Source: a virus. Taken from it: 23,206 nt of DNA. Under the pieces are notes generated by a model, which was not told the DNA's origin, searched no databases, and saw only the letters and a list, made by a program, of their open reading frames with translations. Shown here in pieces: positions 384 to 5,910 of this stretch. The stretch covers positions 1 to 23,206 of IMG/VR virus record IMGVR_UViG_3300025853_008850. The stretch is one strand, 5' to 3'. The position numbers were made by a program, and so were the translations under genes. The stretch's first letter is position 1. Each line of letters begins with the position of its first letter.

Positions 384-594
384 AGAAATTGTTGCTCATG
401 TTCGTGACTGGGCACTTGGTAGAATTGAATCTTACGATTGTCAGGACATTTCAAAAATTTATGATCAAATGGCAATCATCGATGAGTTTGTTGAATGGAT
501 AAACATTAGTGATGATGAACTTGAAATTGTAAGCCTTGACGAAATCAGTGAAGAGGAGTATGATAATTACGTTGATGGGATTGAGAGATCATAA
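367..594 (+). CDS. small acidic hypothetical protein
   Basis: 75 residues starting MKLETEEIV. I chose the ATG at 367 because an AAAGGA ribosome-binding site lies 5 nt upstream. The same frame extends back to 151, but that part overlaps the upstream nuclease and gives a low-complexity translation. The protein is strongly acidic, particularly in the C-terminal half (ISDDELEIVSLDEISEEEYD), and has no membrane segment or metal-binding motif. It overlaps the upstream nuclease gene by 17 nt. A possible sigma70 promoter (536-564) sits inside its 3' end and would read into the tRNA array. I do not recognise a function; small acidic proteins between nuclease and tRNA genes are common in T4-like phages. 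Confidence 0.7.
   Translation: MKLETEEIVAHVRDWALGRIESYDCQDISKIYDQMAIIDEFVEWINISDDELEIVSLDEISEEEYDNYVDGIERS
536..564 (+). promoter_or_regulatory. possible sigma70 promoter inside a gene, ahead of the tRNA array
   Basis: TTGACG (536-541) and TATGAT (559-564) are 17 bp apart, each one mismatch from consensus. The site lies within the coding sequence ending at 594, and transcription starting near 571 would reach tRNA-Arg at 652. Its position inside a gene lowers confidence. Confidence 0.35.
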
Positions 595-614
595 TCAACT
601 GCGGTAATCCCCTT

Positions 615-647
615 GGTAGTTCAGGATTAGCGGCGATAGGAACTACC
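615..647 (+). other. hairpin upstream of tRNA-Arg
   Basis: GGTAGTT (615-621) pairs perfectly with AACTACC (641-647), with a 19-nt loop. It ends 4 nt before the tRNA. Similar hairpins occur in the next three spacers, so this may be a processing or protection signal. Confidence 0.5.
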
Positions 648-651
648 ATAT

Positions 652-724
652 GGGCAAGTAGCATAATGGATAATGCAGCATCCTTCTAAGATGTCGATTG
701 GGGGTTCGAGTCCCTCCTTGCCTG
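652..724 (+). tRNA. tRNA-Arg(UCU)
   Basis: 73-nt cloverleaf. The acceptor GGGCAAG pairs with CTTGCCT (one G-U), followed by discriminator G724. The D-stem is GCAT/ATGC, the anticodon loop CTTCTAA has anticodon TCT at 685-687, and the T-arm is GGGGG-TTCGAGT-CCCTC. CCA is not encoded. It reads AGA, a common arginine codon in the AT-rich genes of this window. Confidence 0.95.
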
Positions 725-753
725 TTGACAATCAAACCAAAATGGTTTATGAT
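725..753 (+). promoter_or_regulatory. sigma70 promoter between tRNA-Arg and tRNA-Gly
   Basis: TTGACA (725-730) begins immediately after tRNA-Arg. TATGAT (748-753) follows after exactly 17 bp and is one mismatch from TATAAT. The predicted start near 760 is 4 nt before tRNA-Gly, so it could drive Gly-Asn-Val. The promoter DNA also encodes the hairpin at 727-757. Confidence 0.6.
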
Positions 754-757
754 TGTC
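727..757 (+). other. 13-bp interrupted hairpin in tRNA spacer
   Basis: GACAATC (727-733) pairs with GATTGTC (751-757), and AAACCA (734-739) with TGGTTT (743-748). There is a 2-nt AT bulge and a 3-nt loop. It overlaps both boxes of the promoter at 725-753. In a read-through transcript it would separate tRNA-Arg from tRNA-Gly. Confidence 0.6.
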
Positions 758-763
758 TCACTT

Positions 764-835
764 GCGGATGTAACTCAACGGTAGAGTCACAGCCTTCCAA
801 GCTGTTGGTTGCGCGTTCGAATCGCGTCATCCGCT
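764..835 (+). tRNA. tRNA-Gly(UCC)
   Basis: 72-nt cloverleaf. The acceptor GCGGATG pairs with CATCCGC, followed by discriminator T835. The D-stem is ACTC/GAGT, the anticodon stem ACAGC/GCTGT with loop CTTCCAA (anticodon TCC at 796-798), and the T-arm GCGCG-TTCGAAT-CGCGT. No CCA is encoded. It reads GGA and GGG codons. Confidence 0.95.
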
Positions 836-850
836 TCCTCTTTAAGAGGA
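836..850 (+). other. short hairpin between tRNA-Gly and tRNA-Asn
   Basis: TCCTC (836-840) pairs with GAGGA (846-850) around TTTAA. It begins directly after the tRNA-Gly discriminator base and ends 5 nt before tRNA-Asn. Confidence 0.45.
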
Positions 851-855
851 CTTAT

Positions 856-927
856 TCCCCTATAGCTCAACGGCAGAGCAGAGAGCTGTTAACTCTAAGG
901 TTCCTCGTTCGAATCGAGGTGGGGGAG
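856..927 (+). tRNA. tRNA-Asn(GUU)
   Basis: 72-nt cloverleaf. The acceptor TCCCCTA pairs with TGGGGGA, followed by discriminator G927. The D-stem is GCTC/GAGC, the loop CTGTTAA has anticodon GTT at 888-890, and the T-arm is CCTCG-TTCGAAT-CGAGG. The outermost anticodon-stem position (27-43) is a G-A mismatch. No CCA is encoded. Confidence 0.93.
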
Positions 928-928
928 T

Positions 929-969
929 AGGGTGGACGCATTTATGCGAGTGGGAGTACCTTCCACCCT
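929..969 (+). other. structured tRNA-like spacer element
   Basis: AGGGTGGA (929-936) pairs perfectly with TCCACCCT (962-969). Inside it is a second hairpin, CGCA-TTTA-TGCG (937-948). The outer helix resembles a tRNA acceptor stem (GGGTGGA with TCCACCC plus one base), but only 25 nt are enclosed, too few for a cloverleaf. It could be a processing hairpin or a collapsed tRNA. Confidence 0.5.
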
Positions 970-972
970 TTA

Positions 973-1044
973 GGGCGATTAGCGCAGTGGTAGCGCACCT
1001 CCTTTACACGGAGAGGGTCGGGGGTTCGAATCCCTCATCGCCCA
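973..1044 (+). tRNA. tRNA-Val(UAC)
   Basis: 72-nt cloverleaf. The acceptor GGGCGAT pairs with ATCGCCC, followed by discriminator A1044. The D-stem is GCGC/GCGC, the loop TTTACAC has anticodon TAC at 1005-1007, and the T-arm is GGGGG-TTCGAAT-CCCTC. The 27-43 position is a C-A mismatch. A late promoter box begins 2 nt after its 3' end. Confidence 0.95.
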
Positions 1045-1045
1045 T

Positions 1046-1053
1046 TATAAATA
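1046..1053 (+). promoter_or_regulatory. T4-type late promoter TATAAATA
   Basis: Exact TATAAATA, starting 2 nt after the 3' end of tRNA-Val. With T4 late spacing transcription would start near 1059, giving a 27-nt leader for the zinc-ribbon gene at 1086. Confidence 0.7.
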
Positions 1054-1085
1054 AAATACCATTGAACTGAATAGGATGCAGACAA

Positions 1086-1334
1086 ATGTTAGTCGTAAGA
1101 TGCAAGGATTGCAATAAGGAATTAACTAGCAATCCAAAGACGCAAGTATGTGGTTGTCCAAATATGATGACTGTAAAGGGTGATAGTGTTACAGCCCTTG
1201 ACTTAAGCAGAGTAGTTATGATAAACTCTACACAGAAAGAACAAAAGTCAAACGTTCTTTCCTCTTCAGATCTTGCATATCAAGAAGCAAGAAGACAGCG
1301 CAAAGTTCGCAAGTTGGATTTTGAAATCCGTTGA
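1086..1334 (+). CDS. small zinc-ribbon protein, function unknown
   Basis: 82 residues. The N-terminus has C6-x2-C9 and C22-x-C24, a compact four-cysteine zinc-ribbon arrangement. The rest is hydrophilic and ends in a basic tail (ARRQRKVRKLDFEIR) that could contact nucleic acid. An AGGA ribosome-binding site lies about 11 nt upstream of the ATG, behind the late promoter at 1046. I believe this protein type recurs in T4-like cyanophages, but no function is known to me. Its TGA (1332-1334) overlaps a possible TTG start at 1331. Confidence 0.8.
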   Translation: MLVVRCKDCNKELTSNPKTQVCGCPNMMTVKGDSVTALDLSRVVMINSTQKEQKSNVLSSSDLAYQEARRQRKVRKLDFEIR

Positions 1335-1537
1335 TTAATACTATCTGGAATTACTCTATATCTTTCTTTCAGATTGTAGTTGTGAATTGTGTAACAGTTC
1401 CTGCTAATTGGGAGTATTGTTATCGCGTTGACAAATGGTTAATTCCAGATATAATATATGTTTGGGAACTAAAAACTGGTAAGATTTATCCCTATCAACA
1501 AGAAAAAGAATACTTGGAAGGTCAACCCGATTGGTGA
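1331..1537 (+). CDS. doubtful ORF or gene remnant running into tRNA-Ser
   Basis: 68 codons with no ATG. The only coupled start is a TTG whose TTGA overlaps the previous stop. The translation is rich in W, Y and V (for example CVTVPANWEYCYRVDKW) and looks protein-like rather than random. The frame ends 22 nt inside tRNA-Ser and contains a near-consensus sigma70 promoter (1428-1455). It may be a real small gene whose 3' end was replaced when the tRNA arrived, a decaying gene, or a chance open frame over a tRNA leader. No family is recognised. Confidence 0.25.
   Translation: MINTIWNYSISFFQIVVVNCVTVPANWEYCYRVDKWLIPDIIYVWELKTGKIYPYQQEKEYLEGQPDW
1428..1455 (+). promoter_or_regulatory. sigma70 promoter for tRNA-Ser
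   Basis: Perfect TTGACA (1428-1433) and perfect TATAAT (1450-1455), 16 bp apart. The predicted start is near 1462, about 54 nt upstream of tRNA-Ser. Confidence 0.7.
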
Positions 1538-1602
1538 CGGGACCTGTCTTGAAAACAGTTGAGGTGTTAAAGCCCTTGCCGGTTCGACTCCGGCACCTTC
1601 CG
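1516..1602 (+). tRNA. tRNA-Ser(UGA)
   Basis: 87-nt type II tRNA. The acceptor GGAAGGT pairs with ACCTTCC, followed by discriminator G1602. The loop CTTGAAA has anticodon TGA at 1550-1552. There is a long variable arm (about 1560-1578) and a T-arm GCCGG-TTCGACT-CCGGC. The 27-43 position is a C-U mismatch. No CCA is encoded. Confidence 0.95.
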
Positions 1603-1604
1603 TT

Positions 1605-1612
1605 TATAAAAA
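1605..1612 (+). promoter_or_regulatory. late-promoter-like box TATAAAAA
   Basis: One mismatch from TATAAATA, placed 2 nt after the end of tRNA-Ser, the same position as the exact boxes behind tRNA-Val and tRNA-Pro. It could serve the small-gene string beginning at 1685. Confidence 0.4.
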
Positions 1613-1684
1613 GTTTTTGTATCAACATATTACAATGTTAAGAAAACATTGAATGTCTACATAAAAAATATAGAAGAATCTAAA

Positions 1685-1906
1685 ATGGCAGTCTTTTATT
1701 TTCTAATGCTGACATTCGTTGCATTAGTTGCCTATGCTGGTTATGCTGAAACCATGAAACTGGTTCAGTATATGGACTTACAAATTCGACATGCTGCCAT
1801 TCAGATTCAAATGAAATGGATGGGTTGGCAACTTAAGAGACAGTTAATTAAGGACACAACCGATTTCCAAAAGTTTCTTAAGGAGTACAACAAAGATGTC
1901 CAATAA
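1685..1906 (+). CDS. small membrane-anchored protein, function unknown
   Basis: 73 residues. I chose the ATG at 1685 because an AGAAG site lies about 8 nt upstream and the protein then begins with its membrane segment; the frame could be extended only from a TTG at 1649. Residues 2-20 (AVFYFLMLTFVALVAYAGY) form one transmembrane helix. A hydrophilic, basic cytosolic part follows (about 21-73) and is likely helical. It starts a run of seven tiny genes that overlap by 1-41 nt (1685-2974), suggesting one transcript. The overlap with the next gene is 11 nt. The function is unknown; such inner-membrane peptides are frequent in T4-like phages. Confidence 0.75.
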   Translation: MAVFYFLMLTFVALVAYAGYAETMKLVQYMDLQIRHAAIQIQMKWMGWQLKRQLIKDTTDFQKFLKEYNKDVQ

Positions 1907-2141
1907 AGAGCTGTCCGATCTTTCTATTGAAAGAAAGGAATGCCCAAAGTGTGGTGCGTTGTGGATCAACGGAGAGCACTACTGGTCTGGCACAGGTAAG
2001 AAAGGAAACGAACTTGACCTTGCTGGACTTGTTTGTAATAAACTAGGTGATGACACTTGCATCAATCCATGTGTGGGCATGGAAGGTGGTGTTACATGGC
2101 AAAAGAGATTGACTGAACTTAGTGAGGATTTTCCTGAATGA
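1896..2141 (+). CDS. small zinc-binding protein, function unknown
   Basis: 81 residues. The cysteines CPKC at 16-19, then C47, C55 and C59 are arranged as a zinc ribbon. Conspicuous segments are WINGEHYWSGTGKKG after the first pair and CVGMEGGVTWQKR near the end. It is strongly hydrophilic with no membrane segment. From memory this type is well conserved in T4-like cyanophages, without an assigned function. The ATG overlaps the preceding gene by 11 nt, and its TGA overlaps the next ATG as ATGA, so the genes are probably translationally coupled. Confidence 0.8.
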   Translation: MSNKELSDLSIERKECPKCGALWINGEHYWSGTGKKGNELDLAGLVCNKLGDDTCINPCVGMEGGVTWQKRLTELSEDFPE

Positions 2142-2341
2142 TGCATGAACAAGAAGAATTTATCACACGCTCAGAATGCCAGGAGATGATCGATGCAGCA
2201 ATACGACAACACAACCGTAATGCTTCTATCATTAGTATGTGCGTCGGTTGGGTGGTTCTTGCTTTATTTGCTGAGGGACTTTTGAGATTAGTTGGTGCTA
2301 TCCCACCATTATTGCCGTGGTTAAAAATTACACTTAACTAA
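2138..2341 (+). CDS. small single-pass membrane protein
   Basis: 67 residues. The N-terminal third is charged and hydrophilic (MMHEQEEFITRSECQEMIDAA), followed by a hydrophobic segment at about 30-60 (SIISMCVGWVVLALFAEGLL, then VGAIPPLLPWL), giving one or two membrane passes. It starts as ATGATG; the first ATG overlaps the previous stop and the second, at 2141, is an equally possible start. The stop TAA shares its last A with the next ATG. No family is recognised. The context is the coupled string of tiny phage genes. Confidence 0.7.
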   Translation: MMHEQEEFITRSECQEMIDAAIRQHNRNASIISMCVGWVVLALFAEGLLRLVGAIPPLLPWLKITLN

Positions 2342-2460
2342 TGGACAAGATACAAATCACAGAGGAAGATTTACTCAAACTCCAAAAAAGAGTTTTAGAA
2401 CAAAAAATGGAAGAACTATTTGAAGAGCCATCAACATACGAGGATGAGGAGGAAAAGTAA
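2341..2460 (+). CDS. very short acidic helical protein
   Basis: 39 residues: MDKIQITEEDLLKLQKRV, then a glutamate-rich tail ending EDEEEK. It is predicted helical in the first 30 residues. It is supported by its place in the coupled string: the ATG shares one base with the upstream TAA, and its own TAA shares one base with the ATG of the next gene (TAATG at both ends). AGGAGG-like sequence at its 3' end can serve as ribosome-binding site for the next gene. Function unknown. Confidence 0.6.
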   Translation: MDKIQITEEDLLKLQKRVLEQKMEELFEEPSTYEDEEEK

Positions 2461-2591
2461 TGGAACATCTGTTAGGAAAAGCACTCATTATAGTTGCAAT
2501 ACCCTTTGTAATCGCTACAATCTATTTCGGTTCTAAGAAGGGACACTACTATGAATCCGAACACTATAAGGGCAATGGAACCGCACACTAG
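2460..2591 (+). CDS. short membrane peptide
   Basis: 43 residues. Residues 4-24 (LLGKALIIVAIPFVIATIYF) make one membrane segment; the remainder is hydrophilic with GHYYESEHYKG. The GAGGAGGAAAAG upstream is a strong ribosome-binding site. The start overlaps the previous stop by 1 nt, and the 3' end overlaps the next gene by 41 nt. Function unknown. It resembles other membrane peptides in this string by size and topology only. Confidence 0.6.
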   Translation: MEHLLGKALIIVAIPFVIATIYFGSKKGHYYESEHYKGNGTAH

Positions 2592-2766
2592 ACAAAGGTT
2601 TCATTTCGCAGCATCAGCATTCTCAAGAATCTTTGGAGTCAATCATGTTTCATCTGGTATGATTGACTTTTGTTATGAATGGGCACTAAAAGATGAAACA
2701 GCACCACTTGATTGTTTAAACCACACAGACAGATATTTTAGAGAACTATGGAATCACAATTTTTAA
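2551..2766 (+). CDS. conserved-type small hypothetical protein
   Basis: 71 residues from the ATG at 2551, which has AAGAAGGGA about 7 nt upstream. An in-frame ATG at 2575, behind AAGGGC, would give 63 residues and a shorter overlap with the previous gene, and is a real alternative. The composition is that of a folded soluble protein: the segments RQRFHFAASAFSRIFG, SSGMIDFCYEWAL and LNHTDRYFRELW alternate aromatic and charged residues. No membrane segment or metal motif. The function is not recognised. The last 19 nt overlap the next tiny gene. Confidence 0.65.
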   Translation: MNPNTIRAMEPHTRQRFHFAASAFSRIFGVNHVSSGMIDFCYEWALKDETAPLDCLNHTDRYFRELWNHNF

Positions 2767-2822
2767 TTCTTGGATTTTTCATAGCATTCGGTTTTTTCTT
2801 GTTCTTTATGTCTATAATCTAA
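2748..2822 (+). CDS. 24-residue membrane peptide
   Basis: 24 residues that are almost entirely one hydrophobic helix (FLILGFFIAFGFFLFFMSII after MESQ). It is supported by its exact fit in the overlapping string: it begins 19 nt before the previous stop, and its TAA shares a base with the next ATG. It is too short for homology. It may be a genuine phage membrane peptide or a coupling ORF for the gene that follows. Confidence 0.45.
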   Translation: MESQFLILGFFIAFGFFLFFMSII

Positions 2823-2974
2823 TGGGACACTTTGCAGCAGCAGCACTTAACAACGACTTGTTTTTAGCGTTTATCTGTTATATACTTGTGTTTGTGCCTA
2901 TCATCGGTATCTGGGCAGTCCACAAATACAACTGGCAGCACTGGGCACCATTTGACAAGCACCACAAGAAGTAG
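2822..2974 (+). CDS. short single-pass membrane protein with His/Trp-rich tail
   Basis: 50 residues. Residues 13-32 (about LFLAFICYILVFVPIIGIWA) form one membrane helix. The tail is rich in W and H (VHKYNWQHWAPFDKHHKK). It is the last member of the run of tiny overlapping genes. The DNA for its final residues doubles as a sigma70 promoter: the -35 TTGACA covers codons for Phe-Asp-Lys, and the -10 TATAAT begins on the base after the TAG stop. Function unknown. Confidence 0.6.
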   Translation: MGHFAAAALNNDLFLAFICYILVFVPIIGIWAVHKYNWQHWAPFDKHHKK

Positions 2975-2980
2975 TATAAT
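2952..2980 (+). promoter_or_regulatory. consensus sigma70 promoter for tRNA-Pro
   Basis: Perfect TTGACA (2952-2957) and perfect TATAAT (2975-2980) with 17-bp spacing. The predicted start near 2987 is 11 nt upstream of tRNA-Pro. The -35 lies inside the preceding coding sequence. Confidence 0.85.
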
Positions 2981-2997
2981 TATTAGGTAAGCAACAA

Positions 2998-3071
2998 CGG
3001 AACGTAGCTCAGTTTGGTAGAGCTCTCGCTTTGGGAGCGAGCGGCCGTAGGTTCAAATCCTATCGTTCCGA
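2998..3071 (+). tRNA. tRNA-Pro(UGG)
   Basis: 74-nt cloverleaf. The acceptor CGGAACG pairs perfectly with CGTTCCG, with C1-G72 and discriminator A as is usual for bacterial tRNA-Pro. The D-stem is GCTC/GAGC, the anticodon stem CTCGC/GCGAG with loop TTTGGGA (anticodon TGG at 3032-3034), and the T-arm GTAGG-TTCAAAT-CCTAT. No CCA is encoded. Confidence 0.96.
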
Positions 3072-3073
3072 CT

Positions 3074-3081
3074 TATAAATA
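3074..3081 (+). promoter_or_regulatory. T4-type late promoter TATAAATA
   Basis: Exact TATAAATA, starting 3 nt after the end of tRNA-Pro. T4 late spacing puts the start near 3087, only about 3 nt before the ATG at 3090, so the message would be essentially leaderless. Confidence 0.65.
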
Positions 3082-3089
3082 TCACAACT

Positions 3090-3263
3090 ATGGATTTTTA
3101 TTCAGTGGAATACTGGCAAGAGAATTGGGACACTCTTCTGGACAGAGTAGAAAATGGTGAGACAATAGGAATAGAAAATATATCAACGGGCGAGAGAGCA
3201 GTAATGATACCAGCGGATGATGAACTCATACGCATATACACAGAACACAACGAAGCATCTTAA
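3090..3263 (+). CDS. orphan Phd/YefM-like antitoxin-type protein
   Basis: 57 residues. The pattern YSVEYWQENWDTLLDRVENG, then ETIGIEN and ERAVMIPADDEL matches the N-terminal fold of Phd/YefM antitoxins (a helix of the form W-x2-N-x3-L-L-x2-V-x-x-G-E followed by two strands and a V-x-I/V-P motif). That family binds its operator as a dimer and neutralises a partner toxin through a C-terminal tail. Here the tail is only about 12 residues and no toxin gene follows: tRNA-Ile starts 7 nt after the stop. It may neutralise a host toxin or act only as a DNA-binding regulator. The late promoter at 3074 lies directly upstream. Family assignment is by pattern, without a search. Confidence 0.65.
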   Translation: MDFYSVEYWQENWDTLLDRVENGETIGIENISTGERAVMIPADDELIRIYTEHNEAS

Positions 3264-3269
3264 TCCTAA

Positions 3270-3341
3270 GGGACTGTCGCCTATTGGTTAAGGCCGTCGC
3301 CTTATAAGCGGCTGAATCGGGTTCAATTCCCGACAGTCCTA
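3270..3341 (+). tRNA. tRNA-Ile(UAU)
   Basis: 72-nt cloverleaf. The acceptor GGGACTG pairs with CAGTCCT (one G-U), followed by discriminator A3341. The D-stem is GCCT/AGGC, the anticodon stem GTCGC/GCGGC with loop CTTATAA (anticodon TAT at 3303-3305), and the T-arm TCGGG-TTCAATT-CCCGA. The UAU anticodon reads AUA directly, whereas most bacteria use a CAU anticodon modified to lysidine. Confidence 0.93.
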
Positions 3342-3344
3342 TTG

Positions 3345-3379
3345 GTTAGTTCTGTTGTATAAATAACTGAAGAACTAAC
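3345..3379 (+). repeat. 9-bp inverted repeat bracketing a late promoter
   Basis: GTTAGTTCT (3345-3353) and AGAACTAAC (3371-3379) are perfect inverted repeats. The 17-bp interval holds the late box TATAAATA (3358-3365). It could be an operator or, in a read-through transcript, a hairpin hiding nothing but the promoter copy. Confidence 0.7.
3358..3365 (+). promoter_or_regulatory. T4-type late promoter TATAAATA for the HNH gene
   Basis: Exact TATAAATA; the predicted start near 3371 gives a 21-nt leader before the ATG at 3392. No Shine-Dalgarno sequence is visible in that leader. Confidence 0.65.
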
Positions 3380-3391
3380 TATTATTCTATT

Positions 3392-3769
3392 ATGATTGGT
3401 ACATGTACTTTCTGCTCAAAAAAATTTAAATATTCTCCATCACAAAAAACTGGCAAATATTGTTCTACTAAATGCCAAAGAAATGAAGAACAAAAAATTT
3501 ACATTAGGGAATGGCTTGAAGGAAAAATTGAAGGCAGAATTAGAGGTAATTATGTCTCTGGATATATCAGGAGATATTTGTTAGATGAATCCAATCATAA
3601 ATGTACTCAATGTGGATGGTCTCAAGTTAATCCACATACCGGAAATGTTCCTTTAGAAATAGATCATATAGATGGAAACCGAAAAAATTCTAAAAGGGAA
3701 AACCTACGAGTACTATGTCCAAACTGCCATTCTCTTACTCCAACCTATAGAGCACTCAATATAAAGTGA
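3392..3769 (+). CDS. HNH homing-type endonuclease with N-terminal zinc finger
   Basis: 125 residues. The N-terminus has C5-x2-C8 and C24-x3-C28, a zinc finger likely to assist DNA binding. The HNH nuclease core occupies about 68-115: C71-x2-C74 on one side, then LEIDHIDGNRKN (catalytic D91-H92), N104, and C109-x2-C112-H113 closing the structural zinc site. Small HNH proteins of this form are mobile endonucleases that cut near their insertion point in phage genomes. It sits between tRNA-Ile and tRNA-Met (9 nt to the latter), a typical target neighbourhood. Its own late promoter lies in an inverted repeat just upstream. Confidence 0.9.
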   Translation: MIGTCTFCSKKFKYSPSQKTGKYCSTKCQRNEEQKIYIREWLEGKIEGRIRGNYVSGYIRRYLLDESNHKCTQCGWSQVNPHTGNVPLEIDHIDGNRKNSKRENLRVLCPNCHSLTPTYRALNIK

Positions 3770-3778
3770 CTCATTAAT

Positions 3779-3851
3779 GCTGGTTTAGCTCTCTGGTGAA
3801 AGCACTGTCCTCATAAGACAAGATAGGTCGGTTCGATCCCGACAACCAGCA
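3779..3851 (+). tRNA. tRNA-Met(CAU), elongator type
   Basis: 73-nt cloverleaf. The acceptor GCTGGTT pairs perfectly with AACCAGC, followed by discriminator A3851. The D-stem is GCTC/AAGC (three pairs), the loop CTCATAA has anticodon CAT at 3812-3814, and the T-arm is GTCGG-TTCGATC-CCGAC. The paired G1-C72 argues against an initiator tRNA. Ile-lysidine identity is less likely because a UAU Ile tRNA is present. The 27-43 position is a C-A mismatch. Confidence 0.9.
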
Positions 3852-3852
3852 C

Positions 3853-3881
3853 TTGACAGTTCTCTGTCAAACCCCTATAAT
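3853..3881 (+). promoter_or_regulatory. consensus sigma70 promoter with hairpin over the -35
   Basis: Perfect TTGACA (3853-3858) and TATAAT (3876-3881) with 17-bp spacing, beginning 2 nt after tRNA-Met. TTGACAG (3853-3859) is repeated inversely as CTGTCAA (3864-3870), which could form an operator. It drives the gene at 3904, with a predicted start near 3888. Confidence 0.85.
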
Positions 3882-3903
3882 AACTGGGTAATCAATCAAA
3901 ACG

Positions 3904-4437: not shown

Positions 4438-4445
4438 ACTAAATA
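4438..4445 (+). promoter_or_regulatory. late-promoter-like box ACTAAATA
   Basis: A variant of the T4 late box TATAAATA, 22 nt upstream of the ATG at 4468. It is followed by the palindrome TAACTCAAGAGTTA. The 106-nt gap 4362-4467 shows no other clear signal. Confidence 0.4.
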
Positions 4446-4467: not shown

Positions 4468-4686
4468 ATGGCAACAAAAGGAACAGCAGCAAAATCCTCA
4501 AGCGGTGCGGCAATGTCGCAATATGATGTTGAAGTTGAATCAAGACTTCAAAAATTAGAAGCGCAAGCACATACTCCTTGTGGTGGTGGTGCAGATGAAG
4601 GAAAAATCGCAGCACTTGAAGCAAAACTTGCTGAAGTGATTGCAGTCCTAAAACAAGCATCACCTGGAGCAGCAAAGAATCTCTGA
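4468..4686 (+). CDS. small Ala-rich coiled-coil protein
   Basis: 72 residues. The N-terminus is Ala/Ser/Lys-rich (MATKGTAAKSSSGAAMSQY) and probably disordered. Two heptad-like helices follow (about 20-34, VEVESRLQKLEAQ; 46-65, IAALEAKLAEVIAVLKQA), separated by a CGGG turn. This suggests a self-associating coiled coil. A late-type box upstream, no Shine-Dalgarno and a strong terminator downstream make it a monocistronic, probably late gene. Proteins of this form are common in cyanomyoviruses and are often suspected to be virion-associated, but that is inference here. Confidence 0.75.
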   Translation: MATKGTAAKSSSGAAMSQYDVEVESRLQKLEAQAHTPCGGGADEGKIAALEAKLAEVIAVLKQASPGAAKNL

Positions 4687-4690
4687 TAGT

Positions 4691-4774
4691 TTTCTTGCCA
4701 TTTCTCTAAAAGGCAAGTGGTGCGGATGGGATAACTCCCGCCTGGTTTCTTGCCTCCAGTTAAAGGGCAAGTGG
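4691..4774 (+). repeat. two copies of a stem-loop repeat, 55-nt period
   Basis: TTTCTTGCC...GGCAAGTGG occurs at 4691-4720 and again at 4746-4774. In each copy CTTGCC pairs with GGCAAG; the loops (12 and 11 nt) differ. The interval contains GGGATAACTCCC, another small hairpin. So 4687-4799, otherwise gene-free, is a series of three stem-loops ahead of the terminator. Confidence 0.65.
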
Positions 4775-4799
4775 CGAGCCTGCATACCTAAACGGAATC

Positions 4800-4845: not shown

Positions 4846-5910
4846 ATGAGTTTTTCACATTTCATGAGCGATTATAAGAAAAAAGCACTTGTGCTTGGTG
4901 CTGGTGGCTTTATTGGAAGTCATATGGTAAAGCGTCTCCGCGAAGAGGGATATTGGGTTCGTGGAGTTGATTTAAAGTATCCTGAGTTTTCTTCTACGAA
5001 AGCAAATGAGTTTGTTCAAGGGGATCTTCGTGACGTGAAATTTGTTTCTCGTTGTGTTCGTTTCACTGGATATCTTGGTAACTTTTATCAACAGATTGTA
5101 GACAAGTTTGCAGAACCCTTTGATGAAATCTATCAGTTTGCTGCTGATATGGGTGGAGCAGGTTTTGTCTTCACTGGAGAGAACGATGCAGATATTATGC
5201 ATAATTCTGTATCCATTAACTTGAACGTTCTTGAAGAGCAACGCAAGTTGAACGAAACCAAGGGTGTAAATAAGACTAAGATTTTCTATTCTGGATCTGC
5301 TTGCATGTATCCAGAGCATAATCAACTGGATCCTGACAACCCCGACTGCCGTGAAGAATCCGCATACCCCGCTAACCCCGATTCCGAATATGGATGGGAA
5401 AAACTATTCTCAGAGCGACTTTATTTTGCATATAATAGGAATTATGATATTCCTGTTCGTGTTGCCCGCTACCATAATATCTTTGGGCCAGAGGGCACCT
5501 GGGAGGGTGGAAGAGAGAAGGCTCCAGCTGCAATCTGCCGTAAAGTGGCTTACCTCCCAGAGGATGGTGGAGCAATCGAGGTGTGGGGAGACGGTCTACA
5601 AACTCGTTCCTTCCTGTTCATTGACGAATGTATTGAAGCAACTCGACGATTGATGGATAGTGACTTTATGGGGCCAGTCAATATTGGTTCTGAAGAGATG
5701 GTTACTATTAATCAACTTGTAGATACTGCTGCTAAAGTTGCTAGTAAAGAAGTTCAAAAGATTCATATTGATGGGCCTCTTGGTGTTCGTGGACGCAACT
5801 CAAATAATGATTTGATTCGTGAGAAACTTGGTTGGGATTACTCTCAGACTTTAGAGGAGGGTATTCGCAAGACTTATAACTGGATTCAAGAGCAAATTAA
5901 AAATCGATGA
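4846..5910 (+). CDS. GDP-mannose 3,5-epimerase (GME)
   Basis: 354 residues, extended SDR family. The enzyme epimerises GDP-D-mannose at C3 and C5 to GDP-L-galactose (GDP-L-gulose as by-product). The NAD-binding motif is GAGGFIG (18-24). The GME signatures are all present: AADMGG (99-104), SGSACMYPE (149-157, with S151 and C153), YGWEK (Y182 and K186 of YxxxK), HNIFGPEGTW (210-219), GGREKAPAA (K225, second acid/base residue), GDGLQTRSF and RGRNSNN. The length matches plant GME. ATG 4846 may be leaderless; ATG 4864 (Met7) is an alternative just before the fold. Neither has a Shine-Dalgarno. It is the first gene of the operon and overlaps the next by 4 nt. Confidence 0.93.
   Translation: MSFSHFMSDYKKKALVLGAGGFIGSHMVKRLREEGYWVRGVDLKYPEFSSTKANEFVQGDLRDVKFVSRCVRFTGYLGNFYQQIVDKFAEPFDEIYQFAADMGGAGFVFTGENDADIMHNSVSINLNVLEEQRKLNETKGVNKTKIFYSGSACMYPEHNQLDPDNPDCREESAYPANPDSEYGWEKLFSERLYFAYNRNYDIPVRVARYHNIFGPEGTWEGGREKAPAAICRKVAYLPEDGGAIEVWGDGLQTRSFLFIDECIEATRRLMDSDFMGPVNIGSEEMVTINQLVDTAAKVASKEVQKIHIDGPLGVRGRNSNNDLIREKLGWDYSQTLEEGIRKTYNWIQEQIKNR

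Follow-up and report, generated by a model that had tools for sequence, protein, structure and literature searches.

Host-type promoters, tRNA-adjoining hairpins, late promoters and a candidate pseudoknot RNA in the tRNA region of a T4-like cyanophage

The virus contig of IMG/VR record IMGVR_UViG_3300025853_008850 (23,206 bases, the whole of which is referred to as the window) is part of the genome of a T4-like cyanophage of the Kyanoviridae, a virus of marine cyanobacteria, and the first 4.4 kilobases (kb) of it consist of eight plus-strand tRNA genes among small genes. Comparison with related phages suggests that this tRNA region is compactly wired: host sigma70-type promoters stand at the heads of tRNA units, some of these promoters are nested in hairpins at tRNA 3' ends, phage late promoters lie behind other tRNAs, and one unit begins with a hairpin-pseudoknot leader RNA. 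We give this reading as a whole a probability of about two in three. All five promoter motifs that an original prediction, made from the letters of the window, had placed in this region were found at the same coordinates, and the paired hexamers with the spacing of 16-18 nucleotides (nt) that characterize host sigma70-type promoters of cyanomyoviruses are present in the window:

536 to 564, plus strand: sigma70-like TTGACG-N17-TATGAT, 10 of 12 consensus positions, predicted transcription start (+1) at about 571
725 to 753, plus strand: sigma70-like TTGACA-N17-TATGAT, 11 of 12, predicted +1 at about 760
1428 to 1455, plus strand: promoter-like TTGACA-N16-TATAAT, 12 of 12, within the conserved open reading frame (ORF) 1331-1537
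2952 to 2980, plus strand: sigma70-like TTGACA-N17-TATAAT, 12 of 12, predicted +1 at about 2987, assigned to tRNA-Pro
3853 to 3881, plus strand: sigma70-like TTGACA-N17-TATAAT, 12 of 12, predicted +1 at about 3888, assigned to the following protein genes (phrog_552)

The identities of the eight tRNAs were verified as follows (anticodons in brackets):

651 to 725, plus strand: tRNA-Arg (tct)
764 to 835, plus strand: tRNA-Gly (tcc)
855 to 928, plus strand: tRNA-Asn (gtt)
973 to 1044, plus strand: tRNA-Val (tac)
1515 to 1603, plus strand: tRNA-Ser (tga)
2998 to 3072, plus strand: tRNA-Pro (tgg)
3270 to 3341, plus strand: tRNA-Ile (tat)
3779 to 3852, plus strand: tRNA-Met (cat)

The comparison rests on a non-redundant set of 648 regions upstream of tRNAs, taken from related loci, most of which were fetched with the window's own genes. 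A site matching at least 11 of 12 positions occurs in 131 of them, against 2 for the reversed pattern and 1 for the opposite strand, and the gap between the -10 box and the tRNA peaks at 8-10 nt, at which distance the leaders would be a few bases long. Promoters precede tRNA-Gly (35/46), tRNA-Pro (42/69), tRNA-Arg (22/53) and tRNA-Ile (18/47); they are rare at tRNA-Ser (3/65) and tRNA-Val (2/56) and absent at tRNA-Asn (0/59) and tRNA-Met (0/63), and not one of 151 tRNAs lying within 12 nt behind another tRNA has one. The empty class of closely trailing tRNAs, together with this isoacceptor bias, argues that host sigma70-type promoters mark the heads of predicted tRNA units, in the window tRNA-Arg, tRNA-Gly-Asn-Val and tRNA-Pro. 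Dedicated host-type promoters, as originally proposed, are upheld for the Gly-Asn-Val unit (725), for Pro (2952) and, by indirect evidence, for Arg (536), but not for Ser or for the site at 3853, and the idea that each tRNA has its own promoter does not survive. The hairpins, late promoters and pseudoknot described below had escaped the original prediction. Cyanomyoviruses are without alt, modA, modB and motA and are thought to have their early genes transcribed by the host RNA polymerase in unmodified form (PMC2984593); because they are without these T4 proteins that retune the polymerase, the tRNA units would be transcribed early, by host RNA polymerase.

Conservation beyond coding constraint or background was found for the sites at 725, 2952 and 3853 and not for that at 1428. 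The -35 box of the 725 promoter starts on the last base of tRNA-Arg, its expected +1 at about 760 lies 4 nt 5' of tRNA-Gly, and its footprint is retained in many relatives. At 2952 both hexamers are mostly retained with a spacer of variable sequence (31 alignments cover the site, of which 22 distinct ones are shown). The 3853 promoter, which starts right at the 3' end of tRNA-Met, is likewise retained in many relatives, and a promoter occurs within 90 nt 3' of tRNA-Met in 40 of 60 flanks. It does directly follow tRNA-Met, as first noted, but it precedes a conserved protein gene (phrog_552) and is predicted to serve the next pair of protein genes, not a tRNA. The match at 1428, taken originally for a promoter of tRNA-Ser, lies inside a conserved ORF (1331-1537, phrog_703); in relatives below about 70% identity the codons for VDxWL(I/V/L)P(D/E) stay while the 1428 hexamers are lost in every one. 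Since the codons are kept and the hexamers lost, 1428 is probably a coding coincidence, and we rejected it as the promoter of tRNA-Ser. The 536 site, too, lies inside a conserved ORF (370-594, phrog_23981) and was suspected on that account of being a coding coincidence. We dropped this suspicion because its predicted +1 is where a structured leader begins and promoters stand at the corresponding place in related elements; this position 5' of the leader indirectly supports 536 as the head of the leader and tRNA-Arg unit.

This leader, an element of about 79 nt between the 536 promoter and tRNA-Arg, consists of a hairpin at the predicted +1 followed by an H-type pseudoknot:

571 to 599, plus strand: P0 hairpin (GTTGAT...ATCAAC), starting at the predicted +1
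599 to 649, plus strand: H-type pseudoknot core, with P1 pairing 602-610 with 624-632 and P2 pairing 614-622 with 640-648

Among IMG/VR contigs and cultured phages the element occurs in 92 distinct contexts, with 77 different sequences. A tRNA follows directly in 77 of the 92 contexts (Arg 56, Pro 20, Lys 1), and 85 of the 92 instances have a sigma70-like promoter of at least 10 of 12 positions upstream. The -10 box lies most often 19 or 21 nt 5' of the core (41 cases); in the window this distance is 34 nt, because the P0 loop is larger. All instances but one have a P0 stem of at least 4 base pairs, in relatives usually with a GAGA or GAAA tetraloop (common forms are GTTGA-GAGA-TCAAC and GTGGTT-GAGA-GACCAC). 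The last paired base is usually 3-4 nt from the tRNA by its ARAGORN boundary, and in five cultured phages, for which a covariance model and a tRNA model were combined, the gap between pseudoknot and tRNA is 2 nt. The pseudoknot itself is supported by covariation in both of its crossing helices: in 27 distinct cores all 351 of 351 cells of the 13 counted pairs are standard-paired, and double compensatory changes occur at 8 of the 13 pairs (54 cells), comprising 6 of 8 pairs in P1 and 2 of 5 inner pairs in P2, both helices being 100% paired. In P1, for instance, the pair formed by core positions 5 and 33 changes from G-C to T-A with pairing kept. None of 500 shuffles reached the score, and controls with slid pairings gave 0-5 double-change cells. 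The covariance model scores the window at 79 bits, with a clean separation from background.

The element occurs in 6 of 15 cyanophage genomes, as a single copy in each, and a blastn search found it in 57 records, every one a Synechococcus phage; the matches of a 21-nt pattern scan of genome contigs all failed the full element. Rfam 15 gave no credible match to the pseudoknot RNA, either in the window (540-660), where a microRNA model (15.5 bits, gathering threshold 60) and a small nucleolar RNA model (9.1 bits, gathering threshold 50) stayed below threshold, or at the related locus L012, which had no match. A structured-RNA survey of cyanophages contains no description of this pseudoknot (PMC2864571), and a full-text search for cyanophage and pseudoknot, with subscription papers outside its scope, returned nothing relevant. 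The RNA thus appears to be undescribed so far.

The function of the element is the point at which a competing explanation comes closest. It could be a cis-acting leader of the tRNA operon (a riboswitch, a put-like antitermination element or an exonuclease-resistant cap) instead of a free small RNA, a serious contender that in our judgement falls short of even odds. The element starts at the predicted +1 and usually has a tRNA unit next, as such a leader would, and at the loci L326 and L353 it directly precedes an ORF. It would, however, be unusual for a riboswitch to control a tRNA, and the leader would be stripped off by RNase P; moreover, at S-SKS1 (locus L011) and at L259 another promoter follows immediately. 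In our preferred reading, the RNase P cut at the tRNA 5' end would free the hairpin-pseudoknot of about 79 nt as a small RNA. We infer this release because the element persists at S-SKS1 and at several IMG/VR loci that have lost the tRNA or retain a damaged one: S-SKS1, L259 and L300 show promoter, pseudoknot and then the next promoter, L261 and L310 a truncated tRNA, and L326 and L353 an ORF. It is the least certain step of the scheme, and a cis-acting leader is about as likely. A further and more tentative proposal is that many Synechococcus phages carry, as a single copy, an early noncoding RNA of this kind, transcribed under a sigma70 promoter of its own, in most cases attached to a tRNA and freed by host RNase P, which would act in trans while the phage takes over the cell; we consider this possible but rather doubtful. 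As a separate observation, the tRNA-Arg behind the pseudoknot at L261 and L310 seems to be cut off past the D arm; TATAAATA and an ORF whose product begins MNSCLKCGS come next, which looks like the insertion of a gene into the tRNA.

The promoters could also be the ordinary early promoters of a gene-dense variable region, with the tRNAs merely sitting at module boundaries and being transcribed by read-through. The 3853 promoter serves a protein gene according to our own assignment, many tRNAs have no promoter, and cyanophages are known to have hot spots of gene exchange associated with tRNAs (PMC3037559). Nevertheless, we regard this explanation as unlikely, since the peak of the -10 to tRNA gap at 8-10 nt and the repeated choice of Gly, Pro, Arg and Ile would not be expected from it, and at least 12 of 115 perfect promoters in 15 whole cyanophage genomes lie within 60 nt 5' of a tRNA, where random placement would give 0.29 (distances were taken to 150 tRNA matches, among those listed).

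The second component of the wiring consists of hairpins at tRNA 3' ends, which in the window are the following:

727 to 757, plus strand: hairpin containing the -35 box, spacer and -10 box of the 725 promoter (-13.2 kcal/mol, z -4.9)
836 to 850, plus strand: hairpin adjoining the 3' end of tRNA-Gly (z -2.5)
929 to 969, plus strand: branched hairpin that occupies the interval from tRNA-Asn to tRNA-Val (z -2.5)
3343 to 3381, plus strand: hairpin adjoining tRNA-Ile, with TATAAATA (3358-3365) in its loop region (-14.2 kcal/mol, z -4.7)
3853 to 3870, plus strand: hairpin TTGACAG-TTCT-CTGTCAA, with the -35 box as its 5' arm (z -3.0)

The stretches folded for the stems 727-757, 3343-3381 and 3853-3870 were 726-763, 3342-3388 and 3853-3890, respectively. 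Among 36 non-redundant promoters that abut a tRNA the mean fold z, with the non-hexamer letters alone shuffled, is -4.1 and 89% reach p ≤ 0.05; of 125 promoters remote from tRNAs 14% do so. The tRNA is adjoined by a stem of at least 6 base pairs in 63 of 72 flanks with an abutting promoter (8.7 expected), in 29 of 36 flanks with a promoter slightly farther on (2.3 expected) and in 113 of 255 promoterless flanks (42.8 expected); there is no excess of abutting stems between tightly packed tRNAs (11/163 versus 17.2 expected) or where a late promoter abuts the tRNA (8/46 versus 6.8 expected). The stem of the tRNA-Met type is 98.9% paired with 14 compensatory cells (0 of 500 shuffles), its arms covarying as TTGACAG/CTGTCAA, TTGACTC/GAGTCAA, TTGACAC/GTGTCAA, TTGACGG/CCGTCAA and TTGACTT/AAGTCAA, and some hairpins of this type have UUCG loops. 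The 725-type stem encloses both the -35 and the -10 box. At a tRNA-abutting promoter the -35 box therefore doubles as the 5' arm of a predicted hairpin that starts at the tRNA 3' end.

Two explanations compete at the level of these inverted repeats. They could be DNA operators at which a phage or host regulator binds and shuts the early promoter off, and several sites are indeed perfectly symmetrical across -35 and -10 (for example GACAATTATA...TATAATTGTC), with no G-U in the two variable pairs of the tRNA-Met stem. A single operator would be uniform, though, and stem geometry, loop and sequence vary by site; UUCG loops are present, and the hairpins also adjoin promoterless tRNAs and are absent between tightly packed ones, so that we consider operators improbable. 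Alternatively, the hairpin, as a tRNA 3' trailer or terminator, could be the selected element and the TTGACA match a by-product devoid of promoter activity. The sixth -35 base covarying with the tRNA-Met type hairpin (TTGACT, TTGACG) and those abutting TTGAC hairpins that run into TATAAATA instead of TATAAT would fit this idea, to which we nonetheless assign a very low probability, because the -10 box and the 16-18 nt spacing are mostly kept along with the hairpin and promoters lacking hairpins are enriched near tRNAs as well.

The third component is a phage late promoter motif behind tRNAs. In addition to the copy at 3358, the window contains two further sites of TATAAATA, which makes three in total, each close behind a tRNA, on the coding strand and 5' of a gene, as is typical of T4-type late promoters (TATAAATA or NATAAATA):

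1046 to 1053, plus strand: T4-type late promoter motif TATAAATA, 1 nt after tRNA-Val
3074 to 3081, plus strand: late promoter motif TATAAATA, 1 nt after tRNA-Pro

Of 624 tRNA flanks in the related loci, 70 contain NATAAATA no more than 40 nt past the tRNA, mostly 1-3 nt away, versus 1 on the opposite strand; the opposite strand served as control for TATAAATA, since ATAAATA is identical when reversed and the reversed pattern is useless. In 17 flanks the late motif lies inside the loop of an abutting stem (3.6 in shuffled sequences). At tRNA 3' ends other than those with an abutting sigma70 promoter, a putative late promoter of the phage, NATAAATA, would serve the gene that comes next. NATAAATA is the known late promoter of cyanomyoviruses and TATAAATA that of T4 (PMC2984593). 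The motif found here is identical to the known one and has the same strong coding-strand bias, but unlike in that description it often stands 1-3 nt behind a tRNA and at times in a hairpin loop. A Phd-like antitoxin homologue (phrog_375, 3090-3263) follows directly after the late promoter 3' of tRNA-Pro, and CTAAATA with a short inverted repeat at 4439-4445, before an ORF at 4468, is possibly another late promoter variant.

In the proposed scheme, the hairpins would close or shield the upstream tRNA transcript, as a 3' trailer or as punctuation resembling promoter early stem-loops and not as U-tract terminators, and the same DNA that encodes the hairpin would start the next transcript. Late transcripts would begin behind the tRNAs and leave these out. 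Several points weigh against this reading. The 536 promoter scores just 10 of 12 and lies in a gene. The set of tRNA loci is biased to one orthologous region; the genome-wide results are those of the 15-genome scans for perfect promoters, for tRNAs and for promoter-tRNA distances, together with the leader-element scan. Alignment A2 of the tRNA-Met type stem includes 4 sequences picked from near-abutting hairpins, and its statistics lean towards structure; in the 13 abutting tRNA-Met sequences by themselves the stem is visible by eye in all. Covariation in the 725-type stem is weaker (75.9% paired), with only some measures exceeding shuffles. Finally, the two variable pairs of the tRNA-Met stem lack G-U, and the compensatory promoter stems could be DNA dyads (operators) instead of RNA hairpins.

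The count of promoters against chance that the original prediction had suggested as a check comes out in its favour for the best sites: perfect 12/12 matches number 3 in the window and 0 in 100 shuffles, and 115 in the 15 whole genomes versus 4 for the reversed pattern. For sites of at least 9 of 12 positions the window holds 80 where 72.1 are expected, which is no excess, so that only the top-scoring sites are informative. As perfect sites occur about once per 26 kb across the 15 genomes (about seven or eight per genome), the three within 2.5 kb of the window form a local cluster, with a Poisson probability of about 5e-4 for a 4-kb stretch and of about 0.01 when 1428 is left out. That the matches in general arise by chance in AT-rich DNA, which the loose sites would allow and of which 1428 is probably one instance, has a negligible probability given the perfect-site counts in window and genomes, the enrichment upstream of tRNAs and the conservation of sites across phages, which for 725, 2952 and 3853 rules chance out.

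The closest annotated relatives of the window belong to the Synechococcus T4-like phages, S-SM2 and Bellamy (Kyanoviridae) among them. The order of its tRNAs matches that of S-SM2 and, except for tRNA-Ile, that of Bellamy, and nrdA/nrdB immediately precede the tRNAs in both. Positions 3-383 encode a SegE-like GIY-YIG endonuclease (PF19835, E 5e-52); the PHROG that matches there is labelled 'NAD synthetase', a label that looks wrong. An HNH endonuclease gene at 3392-3769 separates tRNA-Ile from tRNA-Met, where S-SM2 has a gap of 4 nt. The tRNA with the CAT anticodon (3779-3852) may be a lysidine-type tRNA-Ile, as has been proposed in other T4-like phages (PMC1524935); it accompanies tRNA-Ile TAT (3270-3341), and there would be two readers of AUA if it is of the lysidine type. 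A glycan-gene cluster fills the rest of the window past 4.4 kb, and a wcaG RNA (RF01761, 96.7 bits), a cis-regulatory RNA already known from cyanophages, lies at 4686-4785, 5' of an epimerase gene at 4846.

In T4, the tRNA cluster encodes the stable RNAs C and D. These are likewise non-tRNA structured RNAs of a phage tRNA operon and are likened to the pseudoknot RNA by kind, with no claim of kinship. The wcaG RNA is another cis-structured RNA of these phages, from which the pseudoknot RNA differs in having no credible Rfam family. Composite elements called promoter early stem-loops (PeSLs) have reportedly been described in T4-like phages by Arbiol in 2010 and Comeau in 2014. They combine an early promoter and a stem-loop between variable-region genes of T4-like phages, were found in small number in cyanophages and were judged unlikely to explain gene acquisition in S-PM2 (PMC4503421). 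A putative early promoter overlaps a predicted stem-loop at 725 and 3853; the stems 727-757 and 3853-3870 offer no terminator-like site and no T-run behind them, and we therefore call these elements PeSL-like and not PeSLs. They differ from PeSLs in their position right at tRNA 3' ends, in having no U-tract terminator and in their presence in cyanophages, where few PeSLs had been seen (PMC4503421). Gene content between the tRNAs varies, as the HNH gene illustrates, and no exchange was traced to the hairpin-promoter elements. Host-type early promoters 5' of tRNA genes have already been reported in T4-like phages (Virol J 2006, PMC1524935). The placement before tRNA genes is the same here, but the -35 box of those phages resembles the GTTTAC of T4, whereas here it is a canonical TTGACA, built into hairpins at tRNA 3' ends; a canonical box is expected because cyanophages are without Alt, ModA and ModB (PMC2984593).

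The placement of promoters before tRNAs is thus of a known kind and their nesting in hairpins a variant; it is the pseudoknot RNA that deserves follow-up. A list of promoter matches becomes a proposed wiring plan of tRNA units, with early and late transcription separated at tRNA ends and with DNA that would be both promoter and hairpin. The pseudoknot RNA, carried by the cultured phages S-SM2, Bellamy, S-SCSM2R and S-SKS1, offers a new and well-defined RNA to study in viruses that are abundant in the ocean.

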